DNA of 36,528 bases, from assembly GCA_021734075.1 (NCBI GenBank), contig JAIPJW010000020.1, forward strand, positions 1 through 36,528, in the 5' to 3' direction. This stretch comes from Cephaloticoccus sp. Its GTDB lineage: Bacteria; Verrucomicrobiota; Verrucomicrobiia; Opitutales; Opitutaceae. Under the pieces are notes generated by a model, which worked only from the letters and a program-made list of their open reading frames with translations, ran no database searches and was not told the DNA's origin. Positions 5,725 to 28,381 of this stretch are shown here, piece by piece. The position numbers were made by a program, and so were the translations under genes. The first letter of the stretch is position 1; every line of letters starts with the position of its first letter.

Positions 5725-6654
5725 ATGAAAACCATTTCCATCGTCACCCCCTGTTATAACGAGGCAGGCAACATCCCCGAGCTGATTCGTTGTGTGCGTG
5801 ACGTGATGGTGCAGCTGTCCAGCTACCAATTTGAACATATTTTCATCGACAATGCTTCGACCGACGAAACTTTGGCGGTGCTCCGGCAATACGCGGCGGA
5901 AGATCTTCGAATCAAGATCATCGTGAATGCCCGGAATTTCGGGCACATACGTTCGCCCTACCATGCTTTGCTGCAGGCGCAGGGCGACGCAGTCATTTCC
6001 ATTGTGGCGGATCTGCAGGATCCTCCCGGACTGATGCTCGACTTTGTGCGGGAGTGGGAAGCCGGGCACAAAGTGGTCGTCGGGATCAAAACCCGCAGCC
6101 GTGAAGCCTGGTGGATGTATCGGGCACGGGGGTTTTATTATAAACTGATCAAGCGCTTGGCTGATGTGGAGTTGCTCGAGCAATTCACGGGTTTTGGCCT
6201 TTATGACCGCCAGATCATGGAAGTGCTACGCGGGTTGCGGGAGCCCTACCCGTATTTTCGCGGACTCATTTCCGATGTGGGCTACAACATCAAGCGGATC
6301 GAATACACCCAGCCGGAACGCTTTCACGGCCGGACCAAGAATAATTTTTTCAGTCTGTTTGACATCGCGTTGCTCGGCTTGACCAGCTACTCCAAGGTGC
6401 CCCTGCGTCTGGCCACTCTGGTCGGTTTCTTCACGGCCGGTCTCTCTCTCCTGGCGGGGTTTGGTTACCTGATCGCCAAATTGCTTTTCTGGAACACGTT
6501 TACCGCAGGTGTCGCGCCGGTGATGCTCGGCATATTCTTTCTCGGCTCAGTGCAGCTGATCTTCATGGGCATCGTCGGCGAGTATGTCGGCGCAGTATTC
6601 ACTTATGTGCAAAACCGCCCACTCGTCATTGAAAAGGAACGGATAAATTTCTGA
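5725..6654 (+). CDS. GT2 polyprenyl-phosphate glycosyltransferase, GtrB/ArnC type, two C-terminal TM helices
   Basis: A 309-aa glycosyltransferase with an N-terminal GT-A domain facing the cytoplasm and two hydrophobic helices near residues 228-250 and 262-288. It has SIVTPCYNEAGNIPEL, IDNASTDET, the metal/nucleotide site ADLQDPP (Asp96, Asp99), FTGFGLYDR and a GRTKNNF segment matching the RxxG-x-(S/T)-K acceptor-loop region of DPM1/GtrB/ArnC proteins. Such enzymes transfer a sugar from an NDP-sugar to undecaprenyl phosphate, making a lipid donor for periplasmic GT-C transferases. It is the last gene of the plus-strand sugar cluster and may load the sugar made by the preceding genes. The 49-base gap before ATG 5725 has no strong ribosome-binding site. 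A convergent GT-C-like gene follows. Confidence 0.88.
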   Translation: MKTISIVTPCYNEAGNIPELIRCVRDVMVQLSSYQFEHIFIDNASTDETLAVLRQYAAEDLRIKIIVNARNFGHIRSPYHALLQAQGDAVISIVADLQDPPGLMLDFVREWEAGHKVVVGIKTRSREAWWMYRARGFYYKLIKRLADVELLEQFTGFGLYDRQIMEVLRGLREPYPYFRGLISDVGYNIKRIEYTQPERFHGRTKNNFFSLFDIALLGLTSYSKVPLRLATLVGFFTAGLSLLAGFGYLIAKLLFWNTFTAGVAPVMLGIFFLGSVQLIFMGIVGEYVGAVFTYVQNRPLVIEKERINF

Positions 6655-8477: not shown

Positions 8478-8681
8478 GGATCTCCAGCCGGGTTGGGGAC
8501 TGCAGTGCGGGAAGGCATAATTTACCAATCTGGGTTTTGTATCCGGCCAGGGGAAGCGGGAAATTCCGCCGAGAAGGTTGCGCTGAGATTAGTCCGGGTG
8601 TTGCGGACGTAGTCCCGCTTTTTCACATCCCTACAATGGGGTGCGAGTGTCCCTGTCATCCTTGACTAAGGGAGCATAGAT
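8478..8681. other. Intergenic stretch between membrane protein gene and tRNA-Leu
   Basis: About 200 bases upstream of the minus-strand membrane protein gene and downstream of the minus-strand tRNA. I see no credible open frame. A near-palindrome GCGGGAAATTCCGCC lies at 8556-8570, and a TAAATT element near 8521-8526 (minus strand) could be a -10 box for the membrane gene, but no matching -35 is visible. No T-rich terminator follows the tRNA. Confidence 0.3.
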
Positions 8682-11295: not shown

Positions 11296-11649
11296 ATGAA
11301 TCAGAACCAGTCCAAGAAGGGTTTTACCCTCGTTGAAATCATGATCGTCGTCGTTATCATCGGTCTTTTGGCCGCTATGGCGATTCCGGCATTCCAAAAA
11401 GTCCGCGCCAGTTCGCAGGACAAGGCCGTCTCGAACAATCTTCGTCAGCTGAGTGCTGCCGCTGATCAATATTTCCTCGAAAACGGTGTCAGTGCGGTTG
11501 GTTCCTCACTGTTGGTTGGCATGGCAAGCAGCCAATACATCAAGCAGGTTCAGACCGTAGCTGGCGAAGTTTACAGTGATTTGATGCAGGGCAATGCCGT
11601 TACTGCTACCGGTGTCGCTGGTGCTCGCACGATTACTTACAGCAACTAA
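11296..11649 (+). CDS. Type IV pilin-like protein (prepilin with N-terminal methylation motif)
   Basis: A 117-aa prepilin. The leader MNQNQSKKG ends in the PilD cleavage site G-FTLVE, with Glu at mature position 5, followed by IMIVVVIIGLLAAMAIPAF, the classic hydrophobic assembly helix. The rest (QKVRASSQDKAVSNNLRQLSA and onwards) is a short globular head of about 75 residues without cysteines, so the disulfide-bonded D-loop of long type IVa pilins is absent. The small size and lack of Cys are like the prepilins common in Verrucomicrobiota, often annotated as PulG-like. I chose ATG 11296, since an upstream open extension would be implausible before a class III signal. A strong terminator directly follows, then GT-C-type genes. 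No pilus assembly ATPase or PilD is in the window. The Ser/Thr-rich head could be a glycosylation target. Confidence 0.93.
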   Translation: MNQNQSKKGFTLVEIMIVVVIIGLLAAMAIPAFQKVRASSQDKAVSNNLRQLSAAADQYFLENGVSAVGSSLLVGMASSQYIKQVQTVAGEVYSDLMQGNAVTATGVAGARTITYSN

Positions 11650-11676
11650 GCCTGATTTCGCTTACATTCCTTTGCA

Positions 11677-11708
11677 AAGCCGTCCATGAAAATGGGCGGC
11701 TTTTTTTT
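11677..11708 (+). terminator. Strong rho-independent terminator after the pilin gene
   Basis: AAGCCGTCC (11677-11685) pairs with GGGCGGCTT (11694-11702) with one G-U, closing an 8-base loop and followed by a run of eight T (11701-11708). The next gene's ATG is only 5 bases after the run, so the element should give high pilin mRNA and lower read-through into the membrane protein genes. Confidence 0.93.
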
Positions 11709-11712
11709 ACCC

Positions 11713-13584
11713 ATGTTCCAGAGATTCATCAAAGATCGACGTCTGTGGCTTTTCGGGTTGACGGGCTTGTTGGCCTTTGCCGTGGCCCGTTGGGTTTTTC
11801 CACCCAACTCCGGGTTTCACCTCGTGGTCAAATGCGGCTATTGGCTGCTGTTGGTCAACGTCGCCCTGTTCGGTCGTGCCCTTTGGCGGATAGTGCGGGA
11901 CCACAATCAAGCCTGGCGCCCGGGTAAAGCGGACTTTTGGGCTCTGATTTTGGTTTTGGCCGCGGGAAGTTTATGGCAGGCCCATGAGGAAAGGGGATTC
12001 AAAATCCTGTCTGACGAAGTCCTCATGCTTGGCACCTCCATGGATCTGCACTATATCCGGGAGGCGACCTATCCAATCCGGGCCACAGATGTGCAAGGAC
12101 CCTTTCAAGTCTTGCAGGGAGTCCTCGACAAGCGCCCTTTGCTTTTTCCTTTCGTGGTTTCACTCATCCATGATGTGACGGGTTACCGCGCGACCAATCC
12201 CTTTTACGTCAATGTGGTCTTGGGGTATGTTTTTCTGGGTTTGATCTATTTGCTCGGCACCCAAACTGCCGGCACGCGTTGGGGCGGTGCCTTGGGGGTG
12301 ATTCTATTCACGGGTTTGCCCTTGATGGCCCAACAGGCGGCAGGTGGCGGGTTTGAACTACTCAATTTGGTGATGCTGCTGGTGGTGCTTTGGCTTGCAC
12401 TTCGTTATGCCGAACACCCAGAGGAAAAATCGGGCGAGGCTCTGGGTTTGGCGACTGTATTGCTGGCCCAGACCCGTTATGAGTCGGCCCTTTTCATCCT
12501 GCCGATCACTGCGTTGTTGATTTGGGGTTGGGCCAAAGCGGGCCGGGTCGTCCTGCCCTGGTCGTTTTGGTTGTTGCCGGTATTATTGATGCCCGTGGTG
12601 CTGCAGAACCGGCAATTCGCCAGTAACTCGAGTCTATGGGAAATGGCAGGACAAGGAGGCGGTGCCACCGAACCCTTTGGGTTAAGTTATCTGCCGGATA
12701 ATCTTGGTCATGCCCTGGCTTTCTTTTTTGACACTTCAGGTTTCCAACCCAATTCCATCTTTTTTGCGGTGCTGGGACTGTTGGCGCTACCCTTGCTTGG
12801 CATATGGATTGTCCGGACCTTGCGCGAACCGCACAAGGGTGCTGCCACCGATGTGGCTTTGGCCCTTGTCTGTCTGGGCTTATTCGGAGTGACCGCACTG
12901 TTCATGATTTATTTTTGGGGCCAATTTGATCATCCGGTCATTCGGAGGCTTAGTTTGCCTCTCCACCTGCTAATGTTTCTGGCCATCATGGTGGTCATGG
13001 CCCGGTGGCTTCGCAGGCGACTGGTCTGGCAGGTAACCTGCACCGCAGCTGTGGTGGCATTGTTGATCCAGGGGTTGCCGGCCATGGCCAAACGCGCTTA
13101 CGAAATGGAATACACGCCCGGTGTGGAAATGGCATGGCGGGCCGAATTTCTCAATCGATTTCCGGAACGCACTTATTTGTTCATCGACCAGGATTCGGTC
13201 TTTTGGGTTACCCAACACATTGCCGCGACCCCGATCAAGCAGGCCCAATTGCGCAAGGACGGGCTCGCCTACCATTTGCGCAACCACAGCTTTTCGGCCA
13301 TGTATGCGTTTCAGCGCTATCAAGTGGATGAGGAAACCGGTGGGTTGACGATTGATCCGACCGATGACCTGGGGTCCGGGTTTACCTTGGAACCGGTCTG
13401 GCAGAAACGCGTATCCACGCTCCGCATGGCCCGGATCAGTCGGATTACCGCGATTGAGGCGGAGGGTCAAATTTCCAAGGCAACAGAATACGTGGAACCC
13501 GGCCCCGAACCGCTCCGCTCGACCGAAGAATTACAGAAGGCGAAATCCTTGTATTTGGAAAACTGGATCAAGCAGTTACCTTGA
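11713..13584 (+). CDS. Polytopic membrane protein, probable GT-C glycosyltransferase (tandem paralogue A1)
   Basis: A 623-aa integral membrane protein with about eleven hydrophobic segments in residues 10-460 and a soluble C-terminal domain of about 160 aa. After the second or third helix comes KILSDEVLM (Asp101-Glu102), an acidic pair at the place where GT-C enzymes such as PMT/ArnT bind the lipid-sugar. Other marks are LDKRPLLFPF, ELLNLVMLLVVL, LLAQTRYESALF, FWGQFDHPVIRRLSLP and near the end FTLEPVWQKR. All recur in order in the next gene, so the two arose by duplication. ATG 11713 comes right after the pilin terminator; the only GG-rich candidate ribosome-binding site lies in the terminator stem. 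Donor and acceptor are unknown. Confidence 0.75.
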   Translation: MFQRFIKDRRLWLFGLTGLLAFAVARWVFPPNSGFHLVVKCGYWLLLVNVALFGRALWRIVRDHNQAWRPGKADFWALILVLAAGSLWQAHEERGFKILSDEVLMLGTSMDLHYIREATYPIRATDVQGPFQVLQGVLDKRPLLFPFVVSLIHDVTGYRATNPFYVNVVLGYVFLGLIYLLGTQTAGTRWGGALGVILFTGLPLMAQQAAGGGFELLNLVMLLVVLWLALRYAEHPEEKSGEALGLATVLLAQTRYESALFILPITALLIWGWAKAGRVVLPWSFWLLPVLLMPVVLQNRQFASNSSLWEMAGQGGGATEPFGLSYLPDNLGHALAFFFDTSGFQPNSIFFAVLGLLALPLLGIWIVRTLREPHKGAATDVALALVCLGLFGVTALFMIYFWGQFDHPVIRRLSLPLHLLMFLAIMVVMARWLRRRLVWQVTCTAAVVALLIQGLPAMAKRAYEMEYTPGVEMAWRAEFLNRFPERTYLFIDQDSVFWVTQHIAATPIKQAQLRKDGLAYHLRNHSFSAMYAFQRYQVDEETGGLTIDPTDDLGSGFTLEPVWQKRVSTLRMARISRITAIEAEGQISKATEYVEPGPEPLRSTEELQKAKSLYLENWIKQLP

Positions 13585-13586
13585 AT

Positions 13587-15419
13587 ATGGGCGGAGCCAA
13601 AGAGGACATAGATCCACCCGTTCGCGCCAATTCCCGGCTGCAGCTATTGTTGCGCCTGATCGGTTTTGGCTTTGTGGCGGTTGTCGCGGTCTATATCGGG
13701 TTTCTCGCATGCAGCGTTAATGAAGCCCGTCTTTTGGTCCAACGTTTCGGTTATTTCACCATAGCCGGCACTTTTGTCTGGTCCGTGGTTGCGGTGGTGC
13801 GAATTGGGCCCGGATGGTTGCGCAGCTGGTCGGGCATGACCCGACAGGAGGTGTGGGCGGCTGGCGGGGTTGCTTTGCTCCTGACCTTGGTGGCCGTGGT
13901 GACGGTGCCTTATACCTACAAGGTGCTTTATGATGAATTTGTCCTGCAGGCCACGGCATGGAGCCTGCATGAAGCCAGAATTGTCGGGGCGGTCGTGCGG
14001 GCTTATGACATCGGCGGGGTATTCACGACCCTGCAGACCTACCTGGACAAACGCCCCTTCTTCTTTGCCTTCCTGATCTCATTGCTGCACGATCTGACCG
14101 GGCCACGCACCGCCAATGCTTTTATATTCAACACGGTGCTGATGCCGGTTTCGATCGGACTGGTCTATTTGCTCGCCCGGCGTTTGGTCTCACATTGGCC
14201 GGCCATGGCGGCACTCTGTGCCTTCGGGGCATTTTCCCTTCTGGCCCAGAATGCGACAGGTTCGGGCATGGAGTTGTTGAATCTGGTCATGCTGCTCATT
14301 GTAATGCATCTGGGCATATGGTATCTTGAGGCGCCCGACGAAACTCGTCTGACCGCCTTGGTGCTTACTACCATCCTGCTGGCCCAGAGTCGTTATGAAT
14401 CGAGTTTGTATGTGGCCCCGGCTGCTCTCGTGGTATTGGAAGGCTGGCGACGTCGTGACCGGTTGATCCTGCCGATGGCCGCAATTCTGGCTCCGGCAAT
14501 GCTCATCCCTTATGCTTTGCATAACACCTATGTCTCCGGAATGCCTTTTTTGTGGGAATTGCGCGAAGGAGAGGCGACCCGATTCGGTGGGGTATACTTC
14601 ATGGGCAACCTGTCCCACGCCCTGAAGTTTTTCTTCGACTTCTCGGGACAGATACCAAACTCCACCTGGCTCGCCGTGGCGGGTCTGCCGGCAATGATCT
14701 GGACTGTTTGGGTGGTGGGACACCGAGTGGCCGGCTGGCGACAGGCTTCGCCCGTGGTGGTGCTGCACATTATTTTTGGGGTTGGGATTACCGCCAACCT
14801 CGGGTTGCTGATGTTTTATTATTGGGGTCAATTGGATGACCCGATCGTATCGCGCCTGAGTCTGCCGTTCTCGATGTTGCTGGCTTTGTGCATTGCGTGG
14901 ACCATCACCCAATTTCCCCGGTCCCGGCAAAAAGGGGTGGCACAACTTGCGATCACGGGCGCGATATTATCCTACCTGAGCACAGGATTGGTGGCGAATG
15001 GGGTCAATTGGGCGCTCAATCTGCAGGCCCGGGAAATCGCCTGGGAATTGAATGCAGTGCAAAACATGTCCCCGGAACCCCGGCTGATATTGACCAACAA
15101 GTCATCCCTGATCTGGCTGACGAATGAAATTTCCTCGATTCAGATTATCGGAGCCCGCCACCGGGTAGAAGCGATCCGATACCACCTAGCCCAACACACC
15201 TTTGCGGAAATTCTCGTGACCCAAAATTATCGTCCGGTCAATCGGGACGGAGGGTTCCAACTTGATCCGATTGATCGCCTGCCAAGTGAGTATGTGCTGG
15301 AGCCTGTGTTGGAACGACGTTTCGGGACCCATATCGCACGCATCAGTCGCGTGAAGGAACTCTTGCCGGTCAAGGCAGCCTCCACCGAGAATCCTGAGGA
15401 GGTATTGCCACCGTCATGA
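13587..15419 (+). CDS. Polytopic membrane protein, probable GT-C glycosyltransferase (tandem paralogue A2)
   Basis: A 610-aa full-length paralogue of the preceding protein. It has the acidic pair in LYDEFVLQA (Asp116-Glu117), then LDKRPFFFAFLISLLHD, GMELLNLVMLLIV, LLAQSRYESSLY, FFFDFSGQIPNS, YYWGQLDDPIVSRLSLP and VLEPVLERRF near the C-terminus, with about eleven hydrophobic segments before a soluble tail. ATG 13587 lies 2 bases after the previous stop; a TTG at 13581 overlapping that stop is an alternative. The retained acidic pair and end-to-end collinearity suggest both copies are active, perhaps with different sugars or acceptor positions. Function is inferred from topology and motif placement. 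Confidence 0.74.
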   Translation: MGGAKEDIDPPVRANSRLQLLLRLIGFGFVAVVAVYIGFLACSVNEARLLVQRFGYFTIAGTFVWSVVAVVRIGPGWLRSWSGMTRQEVWAAGGVALLLTLVAVVTVPYTYKVLYDEFVLQATAWSLHEARIVGAVVRAYDIGGVFTTLQTYLDKRPFFFAFLISLLHDLTGPRTANAFIFNTVLMPVSIGLVYLLARRLVSHWPAMAALCAFGAFSLLAQNATGSGMELLNLVMLLIVMHLGIWYLEAPDETRLTALVLTTILLAQSRYESSLYVAPAALVVLEGWRRRDRLILPMAAILAPAMLIPYALHNTYVSGMPFLWELREGEATRFGGVYFMGNLSHALKFFFDFSGQIPNSTWLAVAGLPAMIWTVWVVGHRVAGWRQASPVVVLHIIFGVGITANLGLLMFYYWGQLDDPIVSRLSLPFSMLLALCIAWTITQFPRSRQKGVAQLAITGAILSYLSTGLVANGVNWALNLQAREIAWELNAVQNMSPEPRLILTNKSSLIWLTNEISSIQIIGARHRVEAIRYHLAQHTFAEILVTQNYRPVNRDGGFQLDPIDRLPSEYVLEPVLERRFGTHIARISRVKELLPVKAASTENPEEVLPPS

Positions 15420-16666
15420 GTGAGATTGTCACTACCAGCTACAATCGTCCCCGGTTTTATCGCCTGCTGTTTATCGTGGTCGTGCTTACCTTGCATGTGC
15501 TTTTTGCGATGCTGCCTGATTTGTTGACGGTTTTTGGGGTGGGTAAACTTGGAATATGGTTCCGTGACAGCTACGCGATGCTGGCAGCGAGTGATGCAGC
15601 CCAAGCGGGTTACAATCCATTTGTGGAAAATCCCTATGACCTCAGTGGGGAACGGCACATCTATTCCGACTGGTGGTATTTTTTGGGGAAACTGGGTTTC
15701 GATCGCACGTCTTACCTAAAACTCGGTTTCGGTATCGTGCTGGCCTTTTGGCTGGCCGTGATGGCGGTAATTCCATTCCGAACCCGGCAGGATTTTTGGT
15801 GTGCCCTGGCCTTGGGCCTGTCCCCCCCCGTTTGGCTGGCGGTCAATCGGGCAAATCCCGACTTGTTGGTCTTCGCCATCATGACGCTGATCGTGCCGAT
15901 GCTTTTGAGTGAGCGCCGCGTGGTGCGCATCCTGGCGACGATGCCGCTGGCTCTGGCCACTGGCCTGAAGTTTTTCCCCATCTTGGGCGGGATTGTATTA
16001 CTTTGTCCGGCGATATCCCGGAGAGAAAACCTGGCCAAAATTGCAGTGACCCTGGTCTTGTTGGTTTTTCTTGCCTGGTCCCTGCAGGCTGGGGTCAAAA
16101 ACAATCTGGGCGTCTCGTGGTTGGCGATGGGACAGTTTACGTTTGGTGCAGCAGCCGTGCCACTGAAATTGGGCATGGATGATGTATTGGGCGTCACGAT
16201 GGGCCGGGTTCTGGGCTTGGGCCTGGTGGCCTATGCGTTCCTGCGCCCCTCTCACACCGCACAGGTTGAATCGAAGGCTGACCGGCGGGACCAGTTGTTC
16301 TCCTTGATGGGAGTGGCGGTGCTGGCCGGTAATTTTTTCCTTACGGTTGGTTTTCTCTACAAGGGGTTGTTTGCCCTCTGGGTTTTGCCCGATTGCTTGC
16401 GGCGCATCAGAGACAAGACGGCATTTGCTCCGCACGCCAAGCTTGCCGTCGGTTGTCTGATCGGACTCGTGTGGTTGATGCCCATCGCCTGCGTAACTTC
16501 CTATGAATGGTTGAAATGGTTGGCGCCGACAGCAGAGGCCCCGTTCCGTCGGGGCGTTTCAATCGCGGCTGACCTGCTGGCCTGGGGCGCGATGGTTCCC
16601 TTGGTCTTGATATTTGGCGCCAGTCTGCGCGCTTGTTGGATGCGAGGTGAAAAATGGGTGTCGTAA
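15416..16666 (+). CDS. GT87/DUF2029-like polytopic membrane protein (tandem paralogue B1)
   Basis: A 416-aa membrane protein with about ten hydrophobic segments. The first large loop, FRDSYAMLAASDAAQAGYNP (Asp51) followed by NPYDL and a WW pair, resembles the D-x-x...G-x-N/D-P-Y region of DUF2029/GT87 polyprenol-phosphate-mannose-dependent mannosyltransferases. LAVNRANPDLLVF and ATGLKFFP match the conserved N-x-D and K-x-x-P motifs of that family. It starts as ATGA overlapping the previous stop, and its last 13 bases overlap the next gene, so the run is one translationally coupled operon. It is recognisably related to the next protein. A mannosyl- or other hexosyltransferase role using polyprenyl-phosphate-sugar is likely but unproven. 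Confidence 0.72.
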   Translation: MSEIVTTSYNRPRFYRLLFIVVVLTLHVLFAMLPDLLTVFGVGKLGIWFRDSYAMLAASDAAQAGYNPFVENPYDLSGERHIYSDWWYFLGKLGFDRTSYLKLGFGIVLAFWLAVMAVIPFRTRQDFWCALALGLSPPVWLAVNRANPDLLVFAIMTLIVPMLLSERRVVRILATMPLALATGLKFFPILGGIVLLCPAISRRENLAKIAVTLVLLVFLAWSLQAGVKNNLGVSWLAMGQFTFGAAAVPLKLGMDDVLGVTMGRVLGLGLVAYAFLRPSHTAQVESKADRRDQLFSLMGVAVLAGNFFLTVGFLYKGLFALWVLPDCLRRIRDKTAFAPHAKLAVGCLIGLVWLMPIACVTSYEWLKWLAPTAEAPFRRGVSIAADLLAWGAMVPLVLIFGASLRACWMRGEKWVS

Positions 16667-17898
16667 AATCATGGTCGCACCACATGCGCCAACATCGTTG
16701 GTGTTGGCTACTGGGGGCGGCGACCGTGGTCGGGTTTCTTGCCGCAATCGTGCAGCCGAAACTGTTCTGGGAAATGGGCATCATTGTGATGTATCCGACA
16801 TTTTCGGATTTGATCGCGATCCTGGCGGCAGGAGAGGCTGATCAATTGGGTTGGGATGTTTATGCGAACAATCCCCTCGATCCGTATAATCGGCCCCACG
16901 TCTACGGGCCCTGGTGGTTGGTGGTGGGGAAGATGGGTCTGATGCGGGCGGATGCCTGGTGGGTGGGTCTGCTGATAATTGGAATTTTTATCGCGACCGC
17001 CGCCGCCGTGCTCCGGCCGCGCAATGGTCGCACCCTGGTGCTGGCCCTGGGTTTGATGATTTCCCCGCCGGTATTTCTGGCCTTGGAACGCTGCAACAAT
17101 GACCTGGTAATTTTTTTGCTCCTGGTGGCAGCGGTCTGGCTGGTTACTCGGCGGGTGCGCGCCGGCATGATCGCAGGCGGCGGGTTGATCGTGCTGGCGT
17201 CCGCACTTAAACTCTATCCCCTGGTGGCATTGCCAGCACTGGCCGTGCGGGCCGCTTCGCGGCGGTGTGTCTTTTGGCTAATGGTGGGCACGGGAGTGGT
17301 ATGCGCCCTGGTCGTGCTGGATTCGTTGTCGGTTTACCAAAAAGTGATGGAGATCGCGCCGGAGCCGATCACGATATTTGCCTATGGAGCCAAGTTGATT
17401 CTCCATGTCTTGCGGGTATTTCCGTTGGAGCGGATCAATATTTATTACGGTGGTGTGCCCATAATCCTGGTTTCCGTGTGGGTGAGTTGGCGCTGGCGGC
17501 GCGAATTCTGGCAGTTGGTTCCAACCACCGGTTTTACCGCCGGTTGTTTTGTTGCCGGGGCACTGGCCTGGTTCCTGTGCTATACGAGCACCACCAGTTT
17601 CCCTTACCGGCTGATATTGCTGTTGTTGCCGGCCCGCCTGTGGCTCGACCGAGAGGGTTCTGGCCAAGGAAATATGGCCGTGCGATTTCAACTTGGTGCC
17701 ACGTTGTGGTTTTTTTGGACGCTATGCAGTAAACATCATCTTTGGGTTCTGAGCAAAGATGAGCGTTTTTATGGCGGATCCCCTTTCGTCTGGATGACCT
17801 TCGGGTTCGAATTTGCGTTGGGCTTGGTTATATCGGGCACTCTGGCTTTTGCCTTGGTAGGGTGGGCATGGAGGCGTTTTGTAGAGGAAGACAAATGA
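16654..17898 (+). CDS. GT87/DUF2029-like polytopic membrane protein (tandem paralogue B2)
   Basis: A 414-aa protein with the same plan as its upstream neighbour: TM1, an acidic loop with YPTFSDLIAILAAGEADQLG (Asp52), VYANNPLDPYNRPHVYGPWW, SPPVFLALERCNNDLVIFLL and SALKLYPLVALPA. These correspond one-to-one to the marks in the preceding protein. About ten hydrophobic helices are visible and there is no large soluble tail. ATG 16654 overlaps the upstream gene by 13 bases, and its stop overlaps the next ATG as ATGA. The likely role is a GT-C transferase in the cytoplasmic membrane using a lipid-linked sugar; the acceptor is unknown. Confidence 0.72.
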   Translation: MGVVKSWSHHMRQHRWCWLLGAATVVGFLAAIVQPKLFWEMGIIVMYPTFSDLIAILAAGEADQLGWDVYANNPLDPYNRPHVYGPWWLVVGKMGLMRADAWWVGLLIIGIFIATAAAVLRPRNGRTLVLALGLMISPPVFLALERCNNDLVIFLLLVAAVWLVTRRVRAGMIAGGGLIVLASALKLYPLVALPALAVRAASRRCVFWLMVGTGVVCALVVLDSLSVYQKVMEIAPEPITIFAYGAKLILHVLRVFPLERINIYYGGVPIILVSVWVSWRWRREFWQLVPTTGFTAGCFVAGALAWFLCYTSTTSFPYRLILLLLPARLWLDREGSGQGNMAVRFQLGATLWFFWTLCSKHHLWVLSKDERFYGGSPFVWMTFGFEFALGLVISGTLAFALVGWAWRRFVEEDK

Positions 17899-20213
17899 GC
17901 TCCGAACTTTGGGCTTTGTTGCCACTCTTGGGCTTTGGCGGGATTGTCCTTTGGGAATTGTCGATCCGTGCTTCCTTGGTTGAAGCATTACTTCGTTCCA
18001 CGATTTGGTGGGTTGCCGGGGTATGGGTTTTGGCCAATGGACTCAGCCAGTTTTCCTGGTTGCACCCCGCGGTGCTCCGCGGGACTTGGCTGGTGGCGGG
18101 CAGCGCATTGGCAGGCACCGGTATCTGGCGCTTTATTCAGACGCGCAAGGAGTATTTCATCGCATGGCCGCGACTCCGAGGCTGGGAATTGGTCTTTGGT
18201 CTGGCGGGTGGAATCCTAGTGGGGTTGGCTTTGATCACCGCCATTTTCTCCCCGCCGGTGACGGTGGATGTGCTCAATTATCATTTGCCCCGACAATTGA
18301 TGTGGCTCCAGCAAGGTAGTTTGGCCCATTTCATCACCGTAAATGATCGGGCTTTGATGATGCCGCCGATGGCTGAAGTAATCAGCCTGCAGTTTCTGGG
18401 TCTGACCGGCAATGACACTTGGGTAAATTTGCCCCAGTTTTCAGCCTATGCCCTGCTTCCTTTGGTAGTGGGGAAGATAGCCCGTAGGCTCGGGGCATCA
18501 AGGACCGCGGCGGTATTTGGCGCCTGGCTGGTATTGTGTTTGCCGATGGCGTATCATGAAGCATCAAACGCCAAGAATGATCTGCAGGAAGCATTCTGGA
18601 TTGCGTTGCTGGCTTGGAGGGTGGTGGAAGCAGGTATAAAGCCAAGGGTCTGTCTGATCGATGCCGTGTTGGTTGGTTTGATTTTGGCCCTCGCTCTTCT
18701 GACCAAAAGCACGGCGTTTCTTTTCGTCCCGCCACTTTTGGTGCTTGGTTGGTGGGGCTGGCATCACGTTGCAGGGGCCAAGATGGCGTGGCGCCGAACC
18801 TTGGTGGCGGGTGTTATAAGTCTGCTCATGGTTGCTCCCTTTTTTGCCCGCAACCTTGCGTGGTATGGCAGCCCGCTTGGCGTCCATCAAGCCGAGGACG
18901 GTGGGCATCAAGCCAATGAAGCGTTCACGCCAAAATTGATTGCTTCGAATGCGATTCGCAACGCGGTGGTTCATCTTGCCGCTCCCTGGCCGGCCTGGAA
19001 CAGCCTGCTCCTGAGGGGAGTTTCCATACTTCATGGTTGGCTTGGGCTTTCGGTGGATGACCCCCGGAACACCCTATGGGTGTTGGGATTCTCCATCGAA
19101 TACATGCCCAAGGAGGAAACGAAAACCGCCGCTCCGTTTCATTTATTGGCCATCCTGATCGCGGTGATGATGGCGCTGGGCCTGCGCCGGGCCCGGGCTT
19201 GGCGTGGGCTGGCTGGATCGGTGTTGTGCATGGGGCTGCTGTTTTGCCTCGTTTTGAAATGGCAGCCCTGGGGAGCGAGGTTGGAGCTGCCGATTTTTGT
19301 GCTGGGCTCGGTGTTGGTGGCTGGGATCACGGATATTTGGAGCACAGGACGTTCAATGGCTTGGTTCGCCGGTTTGGGTTTGCTCGGCGCCCTGATCTGG
19401 TGGCCAGGGCGGGAAGAGGCCTCGCGTCCCCTTTGGACCACACCGACCATATTTTCAACGTCCCGCAATGTGAACATGTATCGCTATCTGCCACTCTTGC
19501 GTGAGCGTGACAGTCAGCTGGTGACATTGTTGAAAGCGGCAGAGATCAGGAATGTGGCTATTGTTTCGATTCATGACATACCCTACGCATTCATGCGCGA
19601 AATGCAGCGGGTGATTCCTGACGTGCATTTTTATGGAGCTCCGGCAAGTGACAGTGCCGGACCGGCCGAAGCCTATGTCTGTCTCGCACTTCTCAGACCC
19701 ATGGGTTTGAACTATGTGGTAAACGACGTGGGCACCTATCGTTTGGTGGGAGCCGGAGCTGGCGACGGTATCTATTTGCCGGTGGAGAAAGTAAAGGCAT
19801 TGGGTTGGGGACGAAAATTACCGGATTTCGCCGGTTGGTCCTGGTCCGAGGGCATTCAAATCGGAGTTGATATGCCTACGTTGACCGGGTCCGCGCAGTA
19901 TATGCGTTACCTGCCCACGGGGGAATGTGTGCTTGATTTTCAGGCTGAGGGTGAACGCGCCTATCTGTCTGCTCTGGTTATGAATTCTGCGGCGATTCCG
20001 ACCGAACTGGTATTTGAGATCAATAGTGTTGCGGTCGAGCCCGCACACTTGAGCGCACCCGATGGTTATGCTCGTTGGGAAGTTACCCTGCCTTGTCGGA
20101 AAGGGCCCAACCGGCTTGTCATTCATTGTGCTGACAACGGAAAGCGAGAAGTGACCTTCACCCGTTTGGTGATCAATGATTTCCCTCCGGCGGCTGAACA
20201 CACGGATCAGTAA
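17895..20213 (+). CDS. Large polytopic membrane protein, probable GT-C glycosyltransferase with C-terminal beta-rich domain
   Basis: A 772-aa protein with about eleven hydrophobic segments over residues 1-500 and a soluble tail of about 270 residues. The loop SPPVTVDVLNYHLPRQLMW (Asp125, His130) is the D-x-x-x-YHLPR motif seen in several GT-C/GT39-like families, and ASNAKNDLQEAFW and LTKSTAFLFVPPLL follow in the usual order. The last about 100 residues alternate strands (ERAYLSALVM, TELVFEINSVAV, PNRLVIHCAD), resembling a carbohydrate-binding-like sandwich. ATG 17895 has GAGGAAG upstream and overlaps the previous stop as ATGA. Its 3' end overlaps the convergent GT39-like gene by 7 bases. It closes the run that starts behind the pilin. 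Confidence 0.74.
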   Translation: MSSELWALLPLLGFGGIVLWELSIRASLVEALLRSTIWWVAGVWVLANGLSQFSWLHPAVLRGTWLVAGSALAGTGIWRFIQTRKEYFIAWPRLRGWELVFGLAGGILVGLALITAIFSPPVTVDVLNYHLPRQLMWLQQGSLAHFITVNDRALMMPPMAEVISLQFLGLTGNDTWVNLPQFSAYALLPLVVGKIARRLGASRTAAVFGAWLVLCLPMAYHEASNAKNDLQEAFWIALLAWRVVEAGIKPRVCLIDAVLVGLILALALLTKSTAFLFVPPLLVLGWWGWHHVAGAKMAWRRTLVAGVISLLMVAPFFARNLAWYGSPLGVHQAEDGGHQANEAFTPKLIASNAIRNAVVHLAAPWPAWNSLLLRGVSILHGWLGLSVDDPRNTLWVLGFSIEYMPKEETKTAAPFHLLAILIAVMMALGLRRARAWRGLAGSVLCMGLLFCLVLKWQPWGARLELPIFVLGSVLVAGITDIWSTGRSMAWFAGLGLLGALIWWPGREEASRPLWTTPTIFSTSRNVNMYRYLPLLRERDSQLVTLLKAAEIRNVAIVSIHDIPYAFMREMQRVIPDVHFYGAPASDSAGPAEAYVCLALLRPMGLNYVVNDVGTYRLVGAGAGDGIYLPVEKVKALGWGRKLPDFAGWSWSEGIQIGVDMPTLTGSAQYMRYLPTGECVLDFQAEGERAYLSALVMNSAAIPTELVFEINSVAVEPAHLSAPDGYARWEVTLPCRKGPNRLVIHCADNGKREVTFTRLVINDFPPAAEHTDQ

Positions 20214-22177
20214 GGGGGGATCCCTGACAAGGCCTGGGCAATATCGGTGGGACTCAGTCGATATATAAAGATCGAATTGGCGACGATCGCATCCGGCGGA
20301 CGATTCTCAAGGAAATGGCAGAGCCGCCCGAAGCGTAGTTGTTCCAGGGTCAGCAAGTTTTGCTGCCACATGTCCGGATCCATCCCTGCGAGGTGGTCAA
20401 GGTTTTCCGTCAACCGGCGCTGATAGTCGTTTTCGTATTCCGTCGACCAAGGACCCCTCACCTGGGTGTAAACGCGATGCAACATGGTGGCACTGATGCA
20501 GTAGATGCCTTCGGTCAGAGGCGGCAGCAAAGACCGTGGGGCAAAATCGAAATAAATGTCTCCAATGCGGGTCGTCTTGAGTCCGAAGCGCAAAGGATCA
20601 TCCGAACCAAAGTAGGAAAGAAACACCGGTTCGCCGTTTTGGTGGGTGGCAAGCCAAGCCTGAAGATCCGGCAGGCCCTGCCCCCAGTCCAGTGAGCTGT
20701 CGACGAGATATCGGTGCCCGCCGGCGGGACCTCCCGCGAATGTATTGAAATAGGTCAGATAGTGCGGCCGCACCCGCCAGGACTCCACGGCATGCCAGAA
20801 AAGGAGGAGACCTGCTCCCAGCATCCAGATGCGGGACCGGCGGTTCAACTGACTACTGCCGACATATCCGGCGATGATCAATAAAGCGGGATATATCGGC
20901 AACAGGTGGCGATGACCGATGTTGAGATGACTGGTGATGGCAAAAACCCAGTAGATCCCAACGAAAATGAGCAAAGGGGCCAGACGGTAGAGCCAGCGTG
21001 AGCGCAGGGCCGGTTTGGTGCGCGTGAAGGCCAGGAAGGTCAAGCCCAGCAACAGGAGCGTTGGCAGCGTGGTTTTAAGGACGAAGGCGACGGGAAAAAA
21101 CTCCCACCATCCGTTTTCCCGATATTCCCCGGCAAAATAGGCCAGCCGACCACGGGCGTGTAGATCGGTGAAGGCCAGACCATACAGGTAGGCCTCGGGC
21201 AGAACTTTGTTGTTCCGCCCCCAGCGAACGAATGCCTGCACCACGCCGGGTTTCAAGTCCACCGGATCGGCTGGTGCGGCCGCGGCGGCCATGATCGAGC
21301 CGGCGACATGCGGACGTTCGATGAGCACATCGGACCAAGGCTTGGTCATGTGCATCCCGGTTTCAGGCGAGGCAGCATAGCGAAATCCATAGGCCCCCCA
21401 GATCATCACAAAGGCGATTCCCCCGGCCATGATGGCTCCTACCAGCAATGCGCCCGTGCGCCGCGCGGAAGCAAAGCGTCCGCATTGGCGACCGATACGC
21501 CAGGGCAACGGGGCTGGCCGCAGCACACGCAGGATCAGAATGGCGATGGCGACCGGGGCAAAGATCGCCGCGGAATACTTGGACAGGGCCAGAAACCCCA
21601 TGGCCAGACCGGCCGACAGGATCCGGCCCGGTGTGAGGCGATGGCAAAGCCGCCACCATGTGGCCAGCGCGAGCAGGAAGCCCAGTGCCGCCGCCAGATC
21701 GGAGGTGATCAGGGCACTGTGCGCGAGCAAATGCGGATTGAATACGACGAAACCCAACGTGATGAGCCCGCCGACAGCACCGAACAGTTGGCGCGACCAG
21801 AGATAGGTGAGCGCCGCCAGAGCGATGCCGAATAACACGATCATGGCGCGCCCGGAAAACAAAAGTTTATCGGTATCATTGCCCGAACCGAAAAAGAATT
21901 CGTGGCCCAATAACCAGACGTCTGCCCTGGCCCAGGCCGCACCGGCCAAGGTCGGGAAATGGGCTTGGGCCAACACCAGGGGCAGCGCGGCCCAACGTTG
22001 GGGGAGGTTGCCATTTTCAGGCTGCAGTCGATAGTCACCGGTCGTCCAGTAGGTAAACCCTGCGGTGAGATGGGCGGTTTCATCCGCAGTAACGCCGACC
22101 CGTGAGGATACGCTCAAGGCCAACCACCCAAACAGGGCAAGGAGCAGCAGCGGGGCGATGCGTTGCTTGGTTAACAT
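20207..22177 (-). CDS. GT39/PMT-like glycosyltransferase, polytopic membrane protein
   Basis: A 656-aa GT-C enzyme candidate of the protein mannosyltransferase/ArnT class. After TM1 it has VTADETAHLTAGFTYWTTGD (Asp32-Glu33, the catalytic/donor-binding acidic pair) and LQPENGNLPQRWAALPL. SALITSDLAAALGFLLALAT and FLALSKYSAAIFAPVAI are the conserved third- and fifth-helix blocks of the PMT fold. NIGHRHLLPIYP and DSSLDWGQGLPDL with FLSYFGSDDPLRFG in the C-terminal part match a widespread bacterial GT39 subgroup. Such enzymes transfer a sugar from polyprenyl phosphate to protein or glycan outside the cytoplasmic membrane. I chose ATG 22177; a TTG at 22207 is possible. A methyltransferase gene starts divergently 53 bases away. 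Confidence 0.87.
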   Translation of the reverse strand: MLTKQRIAPLLLLALFGWLALSVSSRVGVTADETAHLTAGFTYWTTGDYRLQPENGNLPQRWAALPLVLAQAHFPTLAGAAWARADVWLLGHEFFFGSGNDTDKLLFSGRAMIVLFGIALAALTYLWSRQLFGAVGGLITLGFVVFNPHLLAHSALITSDLAAALGFLLALATWWRLCHRLTPGRILSAGLAMGFLALSKYSAAIFAPVAIAILILRVLRPAPLPWRIGRQCGRFASARRTGALLVGAIMAGGIAFVMIWGAYGFRYAASPETGMHMTKPWSDVLIERPHVAGSIMAAAAAPADPVDLKPGVVQAFVRWGRNNKVLPEAYLYGLAFTDLHARGRLAYFAGEYRENGWWEFFPVAFVLKTTLPTLLLLGLTFLAFTRTKPALRSRWLYRLAPLLIFVGIYWVFAITSHLNIGHRHLLPIYPALLIIAGYVGSSQLNRRSRIWMLGAGLLLFWHAVESWRVRPHYLTYFNTFAGGPAGGHRYLVDSSLDWGQGLPDLQAWLATHQNGEPVFLSYFGSDDPLRFGLKTTRIGDIYFDFAPRSLLPPLTEGIYCISATMLHRVYTQVRGPWSTEYENDYQRRLTENLDHLAGMDPDMWQQNLLTLEQLRFGRLCHFLENRPPDAIVANSIFIYRLSPTDIAQALSGIPPY

Positions 22178-22229
22178 TGGCGTGGACACAGCTTCATCGC
22201 GGCTCAAATTTCGTCAACACGCAGAACAC

Positions 22230-22975: not shown

Positions 22976-25171
22976 TCAGTCTGCGAAACGCAGTGAATCG
23001 AGTATTTTACCGGACGGATCCTTGATGATGATCTCGAGTAAATTCAGTGCGGGCAACGGCGGGAGACCGCCCAGGGGCATGATGATTTGCGACAGGCCTT
23101 GAAGCGAAACCTGGGTGGTGGCGAGGGTCATGGGTCCGGCCGGGGAATTGTCGGGGTGAAGCGGGGTAACTTGCCACGGCCGGATCGGACTCACCGGCAA
23201 TGCGACGATGGTATTGTGCGGGTAGTAAAGACCACGGATTTCAATGCTGCCCGACTGCCCCTCGGCCGCGGTCACAAGTTCCATGGCGGCGAGCATATTG
23301 CCTTCAGCGGGATGCCAACGGGCGGTGGAAATCGAGGTAATTGGCCGGCCGTTCTTCGCCCAGAATTCAAATGAATCGATCCGGAATACGGGCCGAAAAT
23401 TCTGCATCAAGTAGCGTTCCAGAATGCCCTGTGGCGGATGGCCGTGTTCGATCAGGAGCTTGACCAGATAATTCTGCACCACGATCACGGCACGATCATC
23501 CGCTTGCAGTTTATCAATAATCGCCTGCTGTTGGGCCACGGAGAGCAGGGAAAACCAGTGGGTTACATTGGCGGGGGTGGGGGTGGGGTGTCCCGTCCAG
23601 AGATTGAAGCTGAACATGCCCGGATAACTGAAGAGACTTCCCCCGTGTAGACGGACATTTTTGTCTATGATCCGATATGCTCCCGCGAGTTTGTCTGAGA
23701 TGCGTAAATTTTTGCCTCCTGTCAGGCCCAGGGATTGACCCGTGAAATAGCGGTAGCCGCCCACATAGCCGAGGTGCAGCAGCAGCAGGATACTGGCCGT
23801 GGCAAATACACCGCCGCTGACATTCTGTCCGCCCCGTCCCCAAAGACCCATTTTTCCCGTCAAATAATTCAGGGCCTCATGGCATCCGACCATGGCCAAT
23901 GGCACCCATAGAAATGAGCCCCAGCTCATCTGGCTCCCGGCTACCGGATACGCGTGCAGCGTTTGCCAGATGAATACCCATGTGAGCCACAGCTTGGCCT
24001 GATGCAGGGTGGCGGATTTTACCGGACCAAGCGGGACCACCATCAACCACACAAAGGGCAACCCATAGAGAAAACTATACGGGGCGTAGCTGTTCTCTAT
24101 CCCGAGGTAAGTGCTGGCGAAAAATCCAATGACCAAGAGCAGGCGCAATATCGCGACCAAATGGATGATCCATGCTCGCTGGCGAGCTTGGTGCACGATG
24201 ACCAATGCGAACAGTCCCAGCGCCAGCCAGGGGACCAGCGCGGGCCAAAAGACTTGATGCTCAAAGATGTTCGGTTGGCCGAGGGGAGCCAAAACTATGC
24301 CGTGCCAGAGTGCGGCCAGACCGGTGCCGCGTAGCCAGGTTGCGCCCAACACAATGACCATGATGGCCAGAGCCGCACCGATGAATCCCATCCACGATTT
24401 TCCTCCAAACCAATGTCGCGGCGTGGCCTGGATCAACCAGAGCAAGGACAGGGCGGAAAGCGCGAAGGCCAGGGCAAAGATGGCCACCCAAGGGTCGGGC
24501 CAAAGTTTGTTCATCAACAGGAAGGGGACGAGCAGACTCCCTAGGGCAGCCAGCCAAAGGCAGACTCGGGCAAGCTTGGTGGAGGACAGACCCAGCGCCA
24601 TCCAACTTCCGGCGGAGACAAGAAAAAAGACCCCGACATTGATCTTGGTCAGGAGCATCGCGGCCCCGATCGCGCCGCAAAGAAGCGCGAATAACCGGGT
24701 CTGTCCGCGTCCCAAGGCGCAGGCTCCCCCCACGCCACCGAGGGCGGAAAGGAAGGTGAGTATGCCTCCCGGGTGAATCGGTTCGTTCGTCATGACAATC
24801 AGACCGGCAAATGTCAGGACCAAAGTCCCGCTGGTGGTGATGGCACTGCGGGTCTGCCGCCAGACGAAAAGACCGGCCAGGACCACAGCACCTAGCCAGT
24901 AAAACAAGGTGATCAGGCGGCCGGTTACGTGGTCGAAGGCGAGCCCGAACAGGGTGTGAATGCCATGGTAAAGCGTGTAGATGAACGGGCCGTATTGACT
25001 GTAAACCCTGGTGTAGAGTCCTCCCTCCTGGAAATAATTATGCAGGGACCAAAGGACATACCCTTCGTCGTCGTAAACCATGAACTGGGTGAAGAGCAAC
25101 CAGTAGCCACAAACCCCCAACGCGACCAGCACGAGGCCCAGGAGGAAAAGTTGGGGGGAAGATCTATTCAA
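22976..25171 (-). CDS. Large polytopic membrane protein, probable GT-C glycosyltransferase
   Basis: A 731-aa membrane protein. TM1 is followed by MVYDDEGYVLWSLHNYFQ (Asp34, Asp35, Glu36) and YSQYGPFIYTLYHG, a pattern also seen in the protein at 6711-8477. About twelve hydrophobic segments run to residue 480. The C-terminal 220 residues are soluble, with strand-rich sections ending in LEIIIKDPSGKILDSLRFAD. The start is TTG 25171, which overlaps the upstream GT2 stop by 8 bases; the next Met (residue 31) would remove TM1 and is less likely. It is last of four minus-strand genes, directly after a GtrB-like GT2, so it may consume that enzyme's lipid-linked product. The acidic loop supports GT-C chemistry, but no precise family can be named. 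Confidence 0.74.
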   Translation of the reverse strand: MNRSSPQLFLLGLVLVALGVCGYWLLFTQFMVYDDEGYVLWSLHNYFQEGGLYTRVYSQYGPFIYTLYHGIHTLFGLAFDHVTGRLITLFYWLGAVVLAGLFVWRQTRSAITTSGTLVLTFAGLIVMTNEPIHPGGILTFLSALGGVGGACALGRGQTRLFALLCGAIGAAMLLTKINVGVFFLVSAGSWMALGLSSTKLARVCLWLAALGSLLVPFLLMNKLWPDPWVAIFALAFALSALSLLWLIQATPRHWFGGKSWMGFIGAALAIMVIVLGATWLRGTGLAALWHGIVLAPLGQPNIFEHQVFWPALVPWLALGLFALVIVHQARQRAWIIHLVAILRLLLVIGFFASTYLGIENSYAPYSFLYGLPFVWLMVVPLGPVKSATLHQAKLWLTWVFIWQTLHAYPVAGSQMSWGSFLWVPLAMVGCHEALNYLTGKMGLWGRGGQNVSGGVFATASILLLLHLGYVGGYRYFTGQSLGLTGGKNLRISDKLAGAYRIIDKNVRLHGGSLFSYPGMFSFNLWTGHPTPTPANVTHWFSLLSVAQQQAIIDKLQADDRAVIVVQNYLVKLLIEHGHPPQGILERYLMQNFRPVFRIDSFEFWAKNGRPITSISTARWHPAEGNMLAAMELVTAAEGQSGSIEIRGLYYPHNTIVALPVSPIRPWQVTPLHPDNSPAGPMTLATTQVSLQGLSQIIMPLGGLPPLPALNLLEIIIKDPSGKILDSLRFAD

Positions 25172-26105
25172 AGCCCACGCGTCTTTTGACGATGTAGTTG
25201 GGGCGCCGTTTCACTTCATCGTAAACCCGCCCCAGATATTCGCCGAGCACGCCGATGCCGATGAGTTGCACTCCGCCCAAAAACAGCACCAGGGTGACCA
25301 AGGTTGTGAAACCGACCTGCGCGATTTCAATGCCCATCAACCGGCGCACGATGAAAAAGACCCCGATCGCAAATCCCATGCTCGCGATGAAAACACCACA
25401 CAGGGTGAGGAAACGCAGGGGCAGGCGGGAAAAACTGAAGATGCCATCAAACGCGTAGCGGATCAGGCGGTAGAAGTTCTGGGCGGGTTCACCGGCAGCA
25501 CGCTCCTTGCGGTCGTAGAGCACCTCGACCCGAGTAAAGCCTACCCAGGCCCGGAGCCCCGGGAAAAACCGGTGGGCCTCCGGCAGTTGGCGAAAGGCGG
25601 AGATGGCCGCCTGATTCAGCAGGCAGAACGTGCCGGTATTGCGCTCAATGGGCAGATCCACCAACCGGCCGAACCAGGCGTGAAACAAATTGAAGCCCAT
25701 GCGTCGCAAGCCTGTTTCCTCCCGGGAACGGCGCACCGCCAGCACCACTTCGGCCCCTTGCTGCCAGGCCCCGACCAACTGGGGAATGATTTCCGGGGGA
25801 TCCTGCAGGTCCGCGTCCATGGTAACCACGGCATCCACCCCGGTGCATTGTTCAAGGCCGGCCATTAGGGCCGCCTGAAAACCGAAATTGCGGGATAGAC
25901 CCAGCATGCGAAACCGCCCATCGCGCTGGCATTGCGCCACCAAAAGGTCACCCGTGCCATCCTTGCTGCCATCGTCGATCAATATGGCGGACCAGGCCAC
26001 GTGGGGTTGGGCATCAAAGATCGCGGTGAGGCGCCGAAACAACTCGGGCAGCACGGCGGTTTCATTGTAGGCGGGGATGACGAGTGCGACCTTGGGTGAA
26101 CTCAC
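25164..26105 (-). CDS. GT2 polyprenyl-phosphate glycosyltransferase, GtrB type, two C-terminal TM helices
   Basis: A 313-aa enzyme with a cytoplasmic GT-A domain: LVIPAYNETAVLPELFRRL, LIDDGSKDGT, LSRNFGFQAALMAGLE and the metal/nucleotide site TMDADLQDPPE (Asp97, Asp99, Asp102). Two hydrophobic segments follow near residues 232-255 and 265-288, then a LGEYLGRVYDEVKRRPNY tail characteristic of GtrB/YfdH-like bactoprenol glucosyltransferases and relatives. It transfers a sugar from an NDP-sugar to undecaprenyl phosphate. The start is GTG 26105, 45 bases after the upstream GT-C stop. Its 3' end overlaps the next gene, so the two are coupled. A second, shorter GT2 heads the same gene run. Confidence 0.93.
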   Translation of the reverse strand: MSSPKVALVIPAYNETAVLPELFRRLTAIFDAQPHVAWSAILIDDGSKDGTGDLLVAQCQRDGRFRMLGLSRNFGFQAALMAGLEQCTGVDAVVTMDADLQDPPEIIPQLVGAWQQGAEVVLAVRRSREETGLRRMGFNLFHAWFGRLVDLPIERNTGTFCLLNQAAISAFRQLPEAHRFFPGLRAWVGFTRVEVLYDRKERAAGEPAQNFYRLIRYAFDGIFSFSRLPLRFLTLCGVFIASMGFAIGVFFIVRRLMGIEIAQVGFTTLVTLVLFLGGVQLIGIGVLGEYLGRVYDEVKRRPNYIVKRRVGFE

Positions 26106-27579: not shown

Positions 27580-28269
27580 TCAGTTGAACAGGTTGTATTT
27601 GAAGATCGCGTAAAGGGCCCGGAAACCGTCGCGCCAACCGATTTTTTTGCCCTCTTCATAAGTGCGGCCGTAGTAACTGATGCCGACTTCGTAAATGGGC
27701 ACGCGCAAGCGGGCAACCTTGGCCGTGATCTCCGGTTCAAAACCGAACCGATTTTCCTCGATGGTGATTTTCTCCAGAACCTCGCGGCGGAACACCTTGT
27801 AGCAGGTTTCCATGTCCGTGAGATTCAGATTGGTCAGCATGTTGGAGGTGAGGGTGAGAAACTTGTTGCCGATCATGTGCCAGAAATAAACCACCCGGTG
27901 GGCATCACCTCCCGTGAAACGTGAACCGAAGACCACATCGGCCTTACCCTCGAGGATCGGTTTGAGCAGTTTGGGATACTCGCCGGGGTCGTATTCCAGA
28001 TCCGCGTCCTGCACGATGATCGCATCCCCGGTCGCCGCGGCAAAGCCGGTGCGGAGGGCGGCGCCTTTGCCCTGGTTGGTCTCATGGTAGATGATCTTGT
28101 GCACCAGTGGCGTGATCTGGGTGCGCAGCACGTCGCGGGTGCCATCCCGCGAGCAGTCATCCACGATGATAATTTCCATGCTCGCCACGGGAGCTGCTCG
28201 CACGCGATCCACCAAGGTGCGGATGGTATGGGCCTCGTTGTAACAGGGAATCACAATGGATAGCTTCAT
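27580..28269 (-). CDS. GT2 glycosyltransferase, DPM1-like (no TM helices)
   Basis: A 229-aa single-domain GT-A enzyme like eukaryotic and archaeal dolichyl-phosphate mannose synthase. It has [60 protein letters not shown] (Asp88, Asp90, Asp94), [23 protein letters not shown] and [13 protein letters not shown]. The last two blocks are typical of bacterial polyprenyl-phosphate hexosyltransferases in cell-surface loci. It ends before any C-terminal membrane helices, so it is peripheral. ATG 28269 is chosen from the conserved [12 protein letters not shown] start; the longer frame to 28674 lies over the divergent gene. It is the first of four minus-strand genes (GT2, GT-C, GT2, GT-C) with tiny gaps or overlaps. 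Confidence 0.92.
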
Positions 28270-28381
28270 GCGAGTCGGGGCACGATAGATTTCAACGGGA
28301 TTAACGGAAGACTTTTCCGTCCGTCCGCAATTCGGCAGTGCAGGATTGACGCTGACGCGAGCTGCCACGCAGGCTGGCGGG

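Follow-up and report, generated by a model that had tools for sequence, protein, structure and literature searches.

Why does a single type IV prepilin gene stand at the head of a run of large membrane proteins? We met this arrangement in a DNA stretch of 36,528 nucleotides from Cephaloticoccus sp. (Verrucomicrobiota, Opitutaceae; GenBank assembly GCA_021734075.1, contig JAIPJW010000020.1, C193 in our numbering). This whole stretch, hereafter the window, belongs to a genome of 3.5 Mb over 212 contigs. In it, a Cys-free prepilin gene is followed by one terminator and five plus-strand polytopic genes (11713-20213), here called GT1 to GT5, whose neighbours overlap by a few bases. This layout had been described in an initial annotation of the DNA and was borne out by open reading frames, Pfam and fold prediction. 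We propose that the region is probably a pilin-glycosylation cassette of Opitutaceae and their relatives, in which GT1, often together with GT2, would be the pilin glycosyltransferase and GT3-GT5 would form a variable part.

The prepilin carries a G-F-T-L-x-E leader motif and a hydrophobic helix, it matches TIGR02532 as well as PF07963, and its family profile matched geopilin and other type IV pilins in the PDB. In line with the initial annotation, we found no gene for pilus assembly among those scanned in the window; other contigs of the same genome encode T2SSE ATPases and a prepilin peptidase. The genome has 19 other prepilin-motif matches, and no listed open reading frame around them exceeds three predicted transmembrane segments (by a simple hydropathy count, with three of the 19 regions stopping at contig ends). 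A sigma-54 promoter was rejected as a candidate: of 88 pilins, one has TGGCN7TGC upstream, against 1.4 in shuffles, and the window has none. In many genomes the pilin profile also matches open frames of about 430-690 residues, from a point past the leader motif (for example G014:C21:266438, G072:C1:4101372, G099:C1:1767129, G207:C56:216426 and G055:C1:1305644), and the relative G013 has at least 80 prepilin-type matches (80 scored of 281 candidates).

The comparison of gene neighbourhoods that the initial annotation had called for was made in named genomes, in a phylum sample and in an order sample. The named genomes were scanned with the GT1 alignment alone, and the best 80 of 119 loci were kept, to which all counts out of 80 refer; the titles of loci with a close GT1 are mostly Opitutaceae or Opitutae. 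The pilin lies directly 5' of GT1 on the same strand in 68 of the 80. Of the remaining 12, 10 have GT1 at most 330 bp from the contig start and two (L203 and L229) have no pilin, that is, the two genes stand together in 68 of the 70 judgeable loci. The linked loci hold one (35 loci), two (30) or three (3) pilin copies. At L203 (3397-4001), GT1 directly follows rsfS, a possible case of pilin loss. The cassette is also carried by another genome of the same genus, G002. An Opitutaceae-type cassette is likewise present in a record titled Akkermansia muciniphila (L179), whose label looks doubtful.

In the phylum sample (240 genomes), the thresholds applied detected GT1 in 25 genomes and the pilin family in 110. 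GT1 and the pilin are adjacent in 21 of these 25; of the other four, G185, G179 and G113 are non-adjacent, and in G023 a contig end interrupts the locus. In the order sample (113 genomes), the pair counted as adjacent when a same-strand pilin lay no more than 700 bp upstream of GT1: 29 of the 41 genomes with GT1, from ten families, have a pilin 68-297 bp upstream of it. Both genes occur in 39 genomes of this sample, GT1 only in 2, the pilin only in 11 and neither in 61 (Fisher 7e-18, uncorrected for phylogeny). Among the non-adjacent genomes, the contig of G023 ends in a weak pilin-like fragment, G038 has the pilin immediately 3' of GT1 instead, and in G309 GT1 lies 384 bases from the contig start. 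In G305, G316 and G341, the usual pilin lies on a separate contig, and GT1 lies directly behind a different prepilin-like gene (the Pfam N_methyl check covered G305 only); the adjacency inspection took in the GT1 surroundings of G341, which shares its genus with G351, a further one of the non-adjacent genomes.

Adjacency in a single genome says little, and the pilin gene could merely precede an unrelated sugar operon. With the pair together in all but two of the judgeable named loci, in 29 of 41 order-sample genomes and across ten families, we rejected such a chance neighbourhood as exceedingly improbable. In family f1 the pilin lies mostly behind nadD-rsfS, and nadD and rsfS were seen at 50 and 51 of the 80 loci, respectively, many of them cut short. 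At eight linked loci from families f4, f11, f20 and f22 (L084, L085, L156-L158 and L160-L162), nadD and rsfS were not found by tblastn in the ~2-3.6 kb upstream. Therefore, the pilin-GT1 pair holds where the outer flank differs.

The conserved linkage includes the element between the two genes. The hairpin in the window has a 12-pair stem and a predicted energy of -19.5 kcal/mol (z -4.2; equally stable shuffles, 0 of 200). A terminator-like hairpin lies at most 180 nt 3' of the pilin in 61 of the 68 linked loci, where 6.1 would be expected from mononucleotide shuffles, and in a wider set the hairpin is present at 18 of 22 loci, against 1.5 in shuffles; the latter are the 22 of 27 loci that had both genes, and an overlap with genomes of the 68 is possible. 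These terminators are predictions from sequence and folding. The longest frame of GT1 begins at ATG 11686, and since this codon falls within the terminator, ATG 11713 is the most likely start. For GT5, ATG 17895 is the most likely one.

A pilin gene followed by an attenuating terminator is known from Pseudomonas. In the P. aeruginosa groups that have accessory genes, the pilin is followed by a Rho-independent terminator that has been proposed to attenuate the accessory gene (PMC11841053, PMC12369383; these papers and PMC11127046 are cited from excerpts). The two hallmarks of the pilA-tfpO and pilA-tfpW cassettes are present here: a glycosyltransferase gene directly behind the pilin, and a Rho-independent terminator between them. 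The closest parallel is in group IV of P. aeruginosa and P. paraeruginosa, pilA-tfpW(-tfpX), where TfpW adds D-arabinofuranose to its pilin (PMC11841053, PMC12369383). Our locus differs from it in having up to five GT-C genes, the first two being the GT1-GT2 paralogue pair, and in belonging to a different phylum; the likeness to TfpW is drawn here from gene order and description. TfpW is reportedly a GT-C family arabinosyltransferase (Kus et al. 2008, from its title). The pilin described here is free of Cys, whereas P. aeruginosa pilins carry a C-terminal disulfide-bonded loop (PMC11841053). With group I, pilA-tfpO, the locus shares a dedicated enzyme behind the pilin, and Neisseria PglL/PilO share the theme of pilin glycosylation. 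It is unlike the group I cassette, whose TfpO transfers O-antigen units to its pilin (PMC11841053), and no PglL/Wzy-type Pfam domain (the TfpO/PglL/PilO class) was found in the six proteins at E values up to 1. We favour a glycosylation cassette because gene order, type of attenuator and the GT-C enzyme match the P. aeruginosa cassettes.

Are the five proteins indeed GT-C enzymes, as the initial annotation had claimed? Both GT1 and GT2 match PMT_2 above the Pfam cut-off (E 1.4e-7 and 3.7e-7). The AlphaFold model of GT1, built from 34 sequences, has a mean predicted local distance difference test score (pLDDT) of 85.3 and a predicted template modelling score of 0.86, and Foldseek gave 16 matches below 1e-3, every one of them a GT-C enzyme or an oligosaccharyltransferase-complex chain. 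Structural alignment with VIA-align placed it beside yeast STT3 (Z 20.4, root-mean-square deviation (rmsd) 6.1, 439 aligned), ALG12 (Z 19.9, rmsd 4.7, 408 aligned), AftB (Z 19.7, rmsd 5.6, 403 aligned), Pmt1-Pmt2 (Z 19.5, rmsd 4.2, 360 aligned) and ArnT (Z 18.2, rmsd 4.9, 431 aligned). The fold is alike in these rows, with an identity of only 9-11%, and the GT1 profile found no match among PDB sequences up to E 1. The matched core starts near residue 64-76, leaving the first ~64 residues outside most alignments. Judging from the model, GT1 has a GT-C fold.

GT2 is assigned to GT-C by its homology to GT1 and its PMT_2 match, and GT4 by its match to GT87 (PF09594, 34.4 bits against a cut-off of 25). 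GT3, with no Pfam match of its own, is assigned through GT4, to whose profile its own is homologous (hhalign E 1.3e-54 across 345 columns). GT5 matches PMT below the Pfam cut-off, and its profile aligns with that of GT1 (hhalign E 1.2e-5, probability 81%). Its model is weak (pLDDT 53.7) and gave no Foldseek match below 1e-3. In this model, residues ~92-297 produced GT-C rows with Z up to 12.3, about the level expected from helical bundles, and residues ~650-757 produced beta-sandwich rows with Z up to 8.8 (CBM35 rows, 5.0-5.4). GT5 is probably a GT-C protein. The claim of five GT-C proteins stands for GT1 by fold and for GT2, GT4 and GT3 by homology; for GT5 it stands in part, through residues ~92-297 of the weak model.

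The acidic residue or pair that had been noted in each protein was confirmed and is conserved. The D110-E111 pair of GT1 (residues counted from 11686) is invariant across 33 GT1/GT2 proteins, in which other invariant columns include R150, H162, N171, N176, R264-Y265-E266 and R421. D51 is conserved in 7 GT3 proteins, D52 in 8 GT4 proteins and D125 in 7 GT5 proteins (six of them partial). According to the putative topology, these residues lie in the first extracytoplasmic loop, as in GT-C enzymes, where they may be catalytic. These features also bear on the idea that GT1 is a non-catalytic pilin accessory that aids assembly, like Pseudomonas TfpY and its homologues, whose genes likewise lie behind a pilin and a terminator (PMC11841053). 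However, models of TfpY-like proteins consist of three N-terminal helices and a three-stranded sheet (PMC11841053), whereas GT1 is predicted to be a 623-residue GT-C protein with an invariant Asp-Glu pair and further invariant residues. We regard an accessory role as very unlikely.

GtrB- and dolichol-phosphate-mannose-synthase (DPMS)-type enzymes load single sugars onto polyprenyl phosphate and thereby provide the donors of Gtr-type GT-C enzymes (PMC11127046). Two GtrB-like enzymes and one DPMS-like enzyme are encoded in the window near the cassette. Since all three score below the listed NCBIfam equivalog cut-offs, we assign no donor sugar. In combining a polyprenyl-monophosphate-sugar synthase with a GT-C transferase, the region resembles the three-component Gtr systems (GtrB, GtrA, GT-C; PMC11127046). 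It is unlike them in being linked to a pilin, theirs being linked to the O-antigen locus, and the window proteins that were scanned include no GtrA-type flippase.

This likeness leads to the main rival, in which the GT-C enzymes would decorate another surface glycan in a Gtr-like manner (lipopolysaccharide O-chain, capsule or exopolysaccharide) and would lie behind the pilin only through shared surface expression. GtrB-GtrA-GT-C systems for O-antigen are established (PMC11127046), more GT-C-like and glycosyltransferase genes flank the operon, and in several genomes no pilin was found next to GT1. Nevertheless, pilin and GT1 are adjacent in 10 families despite differing outer flanks, and in three genomes it is another prepilin-like gene that precedes GT1. 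We therefore consider the decoration of another surface glycan rather unlikely.

Several observations weigh against a pilin-glycosylation cassette. The pilin is absent from 2 of the 70 judgeable named loci (L203 and L229), and no pilin was found beside GT1 in G044, G048, G179, G300 and G314 of the order sample (the check covered one of the three GT1 contigs of G044 and did not extend to the GT1 surroundings of G300) or in G185 and G113 of the phylum sample. Conversely, 11 order-sample genomes have the pilin without GT1, and extra pilin copies lie away from GT1 in G168 (two), L265 and L266. Across the 47 loci in which nadD, rsfS, pilin and GT1 are all near-complete, the distances of pilin and GT1 correlate with a partial r of 0.31 given nadD; no specific pilin-GT1 co-evolution can be claimed from this because rsfS and GT1 correlate too (partial r 0.37). 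GT2 is not universal, as genomes of family f1 such as G011, G025, G036, G099 and G266 show a single GT1-type gene, and GT3-GT5 are not conserved parts of the cassette.

To summarize, the link between pilin and glycosylation drawn by the initial annotation holds in part. Two of the outcomes that it had named as refuting, neighbourhoods that never unite the pilin with these genes and folds lacking a GT-C core, were checked and are contradicted by the GT1 neighbourhoods and the GT1 model. It gains from the GT1 linkage, the GT-C core and the donor-type enzymes nearby, and from GT2 in closer relatives only; it loses from the variation of GT3, GT4 and GT5 between genomes and from the GT1 genes with no pilin found beside them.

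We infer expression levels, catalysis, donor sugar, acceptor, site and function from this arrangement as follows. The prepilin would be expressed from its own promoter, with most transcripts ending at the terminator, and read-through would supply low levels of the downstream enzymes; the low read-through is suggested because the hairpin is conserved and there is precedent in Pseudomonas. The GtrB- and DPMS-like neighbours would load the carrier with sugar. On the outer face of the inner membrane, GT1, here with GT2, would draw single sugars from polyprenyl-monophosphate carriers and place them on Ser/Thr residues of the pilin prior to its assembly, and GT3-GT5 may lengthen or vary the glycan. 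Among pilins of at least 100 bits, all 90 from GT1 loci have Ser/Thr at positions 112 and 114, compared with 36% and 42%, respectively, of 33 pilins from loci without GT1. We claim no glycosylation site because the GT1-linked set is taxonomically narrower and because the GT1-linked pilin of L093 lacks Ser/Thr at both positions.

How constant is the enzyme part? Each of the 68 linked loci has one or more same-strand paralogues of GT1. GT2 follows GT1 in 79 of the 80 closest loci, the exception (L197) ending just past GT1, and L160-L162, outside f1, have a single GT1-type gene. Same-strand homologues of GT3, GT4 and GT5 were found behind GT1-GT2 in 27, 13 and 6 of the 80 loci; these counts are lower bounds because the loci end at most ~4 kb past GT1. 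A fusion of a methyltransferase with a family 2 glycosyltransferase, ~470-520 residues long, occurs in or near the run at L074, L075, L086, L087 and L090 (Pfam was run on L075).

In some genomes without GT1, other large polytopic proteins follow the pilin. In G056 this is a WDE-motif protein that shares 35% identity with the product of the gene following GT1 in G055; the G055 form barely attains the PMT_2 cut-off. In G015 it is a large polytopic protein with C-terminal tetratricopeptide repeats (TPRs), and in G024 and G188 large polytopic proteins without a family. In other genomes, for example G005, G007, G012, G016, G026 and G156, no large polytopic gene lies directly behind the pilin. It looks as if the enzyme slot behind an orthologous pilin can be refilled when GT1 is missing. 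Differing large polytopic proteins behind an orthologous pilin without GT1 were seen at L104:5667-7487, L105:3645-5303, L153:9027-10655 and L108:305-2044. Those of L105, L108 and L153 match no Pfam or NCBIfam family above cut-off, and that of L104 matches TPRs only; in a sequence search of the PDB, L108 had no match up to E 1 and L104 matched TPR proteins only, and BLASTP gave no significant match for L105 and L153. The L104 protein may resemble TMTC-type proteins.

These variants suggest a bolder version, which we put forward tentatively and hold to be somewhat doubtful: a modular relay, in which up to five GT-C enzymes with polyprenyl-monophosphate donors would build the pilin glycan sugar by sugar and do without an en-bloc oligosaccharyltransferase, and GT-C enzymes of different families would substitute for each other behind an orthologous pilin. 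The replacement series would then comprise mostly GT1 with or without GT2, the WDE-motif protein of G056, and the unclassified or TPR-containing polytopic proteins of G015, G024 and G188.

Table 1 Features of the pilin locus and of its possible partners in the window
Feature	Positions	Strand	Basis
Type IV prepilin, 117 aa, Cys-free	11296..11649	+	N_methyl PF07963 E 6.5e-9; family profile vs PDB
Predicted intrinsic terminator/attenuator between pilin and GT1	11676..11703	+	Fold prediction; conserved in relatives
GT1, predicted GT-C glycosyltransferase, cassette core	11713..13584	+	PMT_2; AlphaFold model; GT-C matches; pilin adjacency
GT2, GT1 paralogue (34% identity)	13581..15419	+	PMT_2; alignment
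GT3, GT87-related	15416..16666	+	hhalign with GT4 profile
GT4, GT87 family	16654..17898	+	PF09594 E 2.5e-8, above cut-off
GT5, probable GT-C with C-terminal carbohydrate-module-like beta-sandwich	17895..20213	+	PMT below cut-off; hhalign with GT1; weak model
PMT_2 GT-C-like protein, system membership uncertain	20207..22207	-	PF13231 E 2.5e-6
GtrB-like polyprenyl-phosphate-glycosyl synthase, possible donor enzyme	25164..26105	-	2.6e-77 to 5ekp chain (sll0501)
DPMS-like glycosyltransferase, possible donor enzyme, probably with an internal true start	27580..28674	-	6.6e-20 to 5mlz
Second GtrB-like glycosyltransferase, possible donor enzyme	5725..6654	+	2.5e-51 to 5ekp chain (sll0501)

Around the cassette, nadD and rsfS lie 5' of the pilin, together with a divergent DUF481 gene. 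Three further large membrane proteins flank the operon (20207-22207, 22976-25171 and 6711-8528, all on the minus strand). The first, which the initial annotation had not listed, converges on the operon, its end at 20207 lying tail to tail with GT5, and a homologue on the opposite strand was seen in 37 of the 80 loci, within the view that the locus ends allow. It matches PMT_2; no Pfam family was matched by the proteins at 22976-25171 and 6711-8528.

The architecture itself is known. None of the literature matches listed featured this enzyme family, the tandem pair, a series of as many as five GT-C genes or the taxon, and in the literature searched, which covers few subscription journals, nothing on pilin glycosylation in Verrucomicrobia or Opitutus appeared among those matches. 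Dedicated pilin-glycosylation cassettes have already been described from Pseudomonas, where the pilin glycan protects P. aeruginosa by blocking pilus-specific phages (PMC11841053, PMC12369383). The analysis yields a clear list of candidate pilin-enzyme pairs. Since an equal architecture, attenuator included, extends across an order in another phylum, sugar-coated pili may be a common strategy, for which bacteria would use varied enzyme families.

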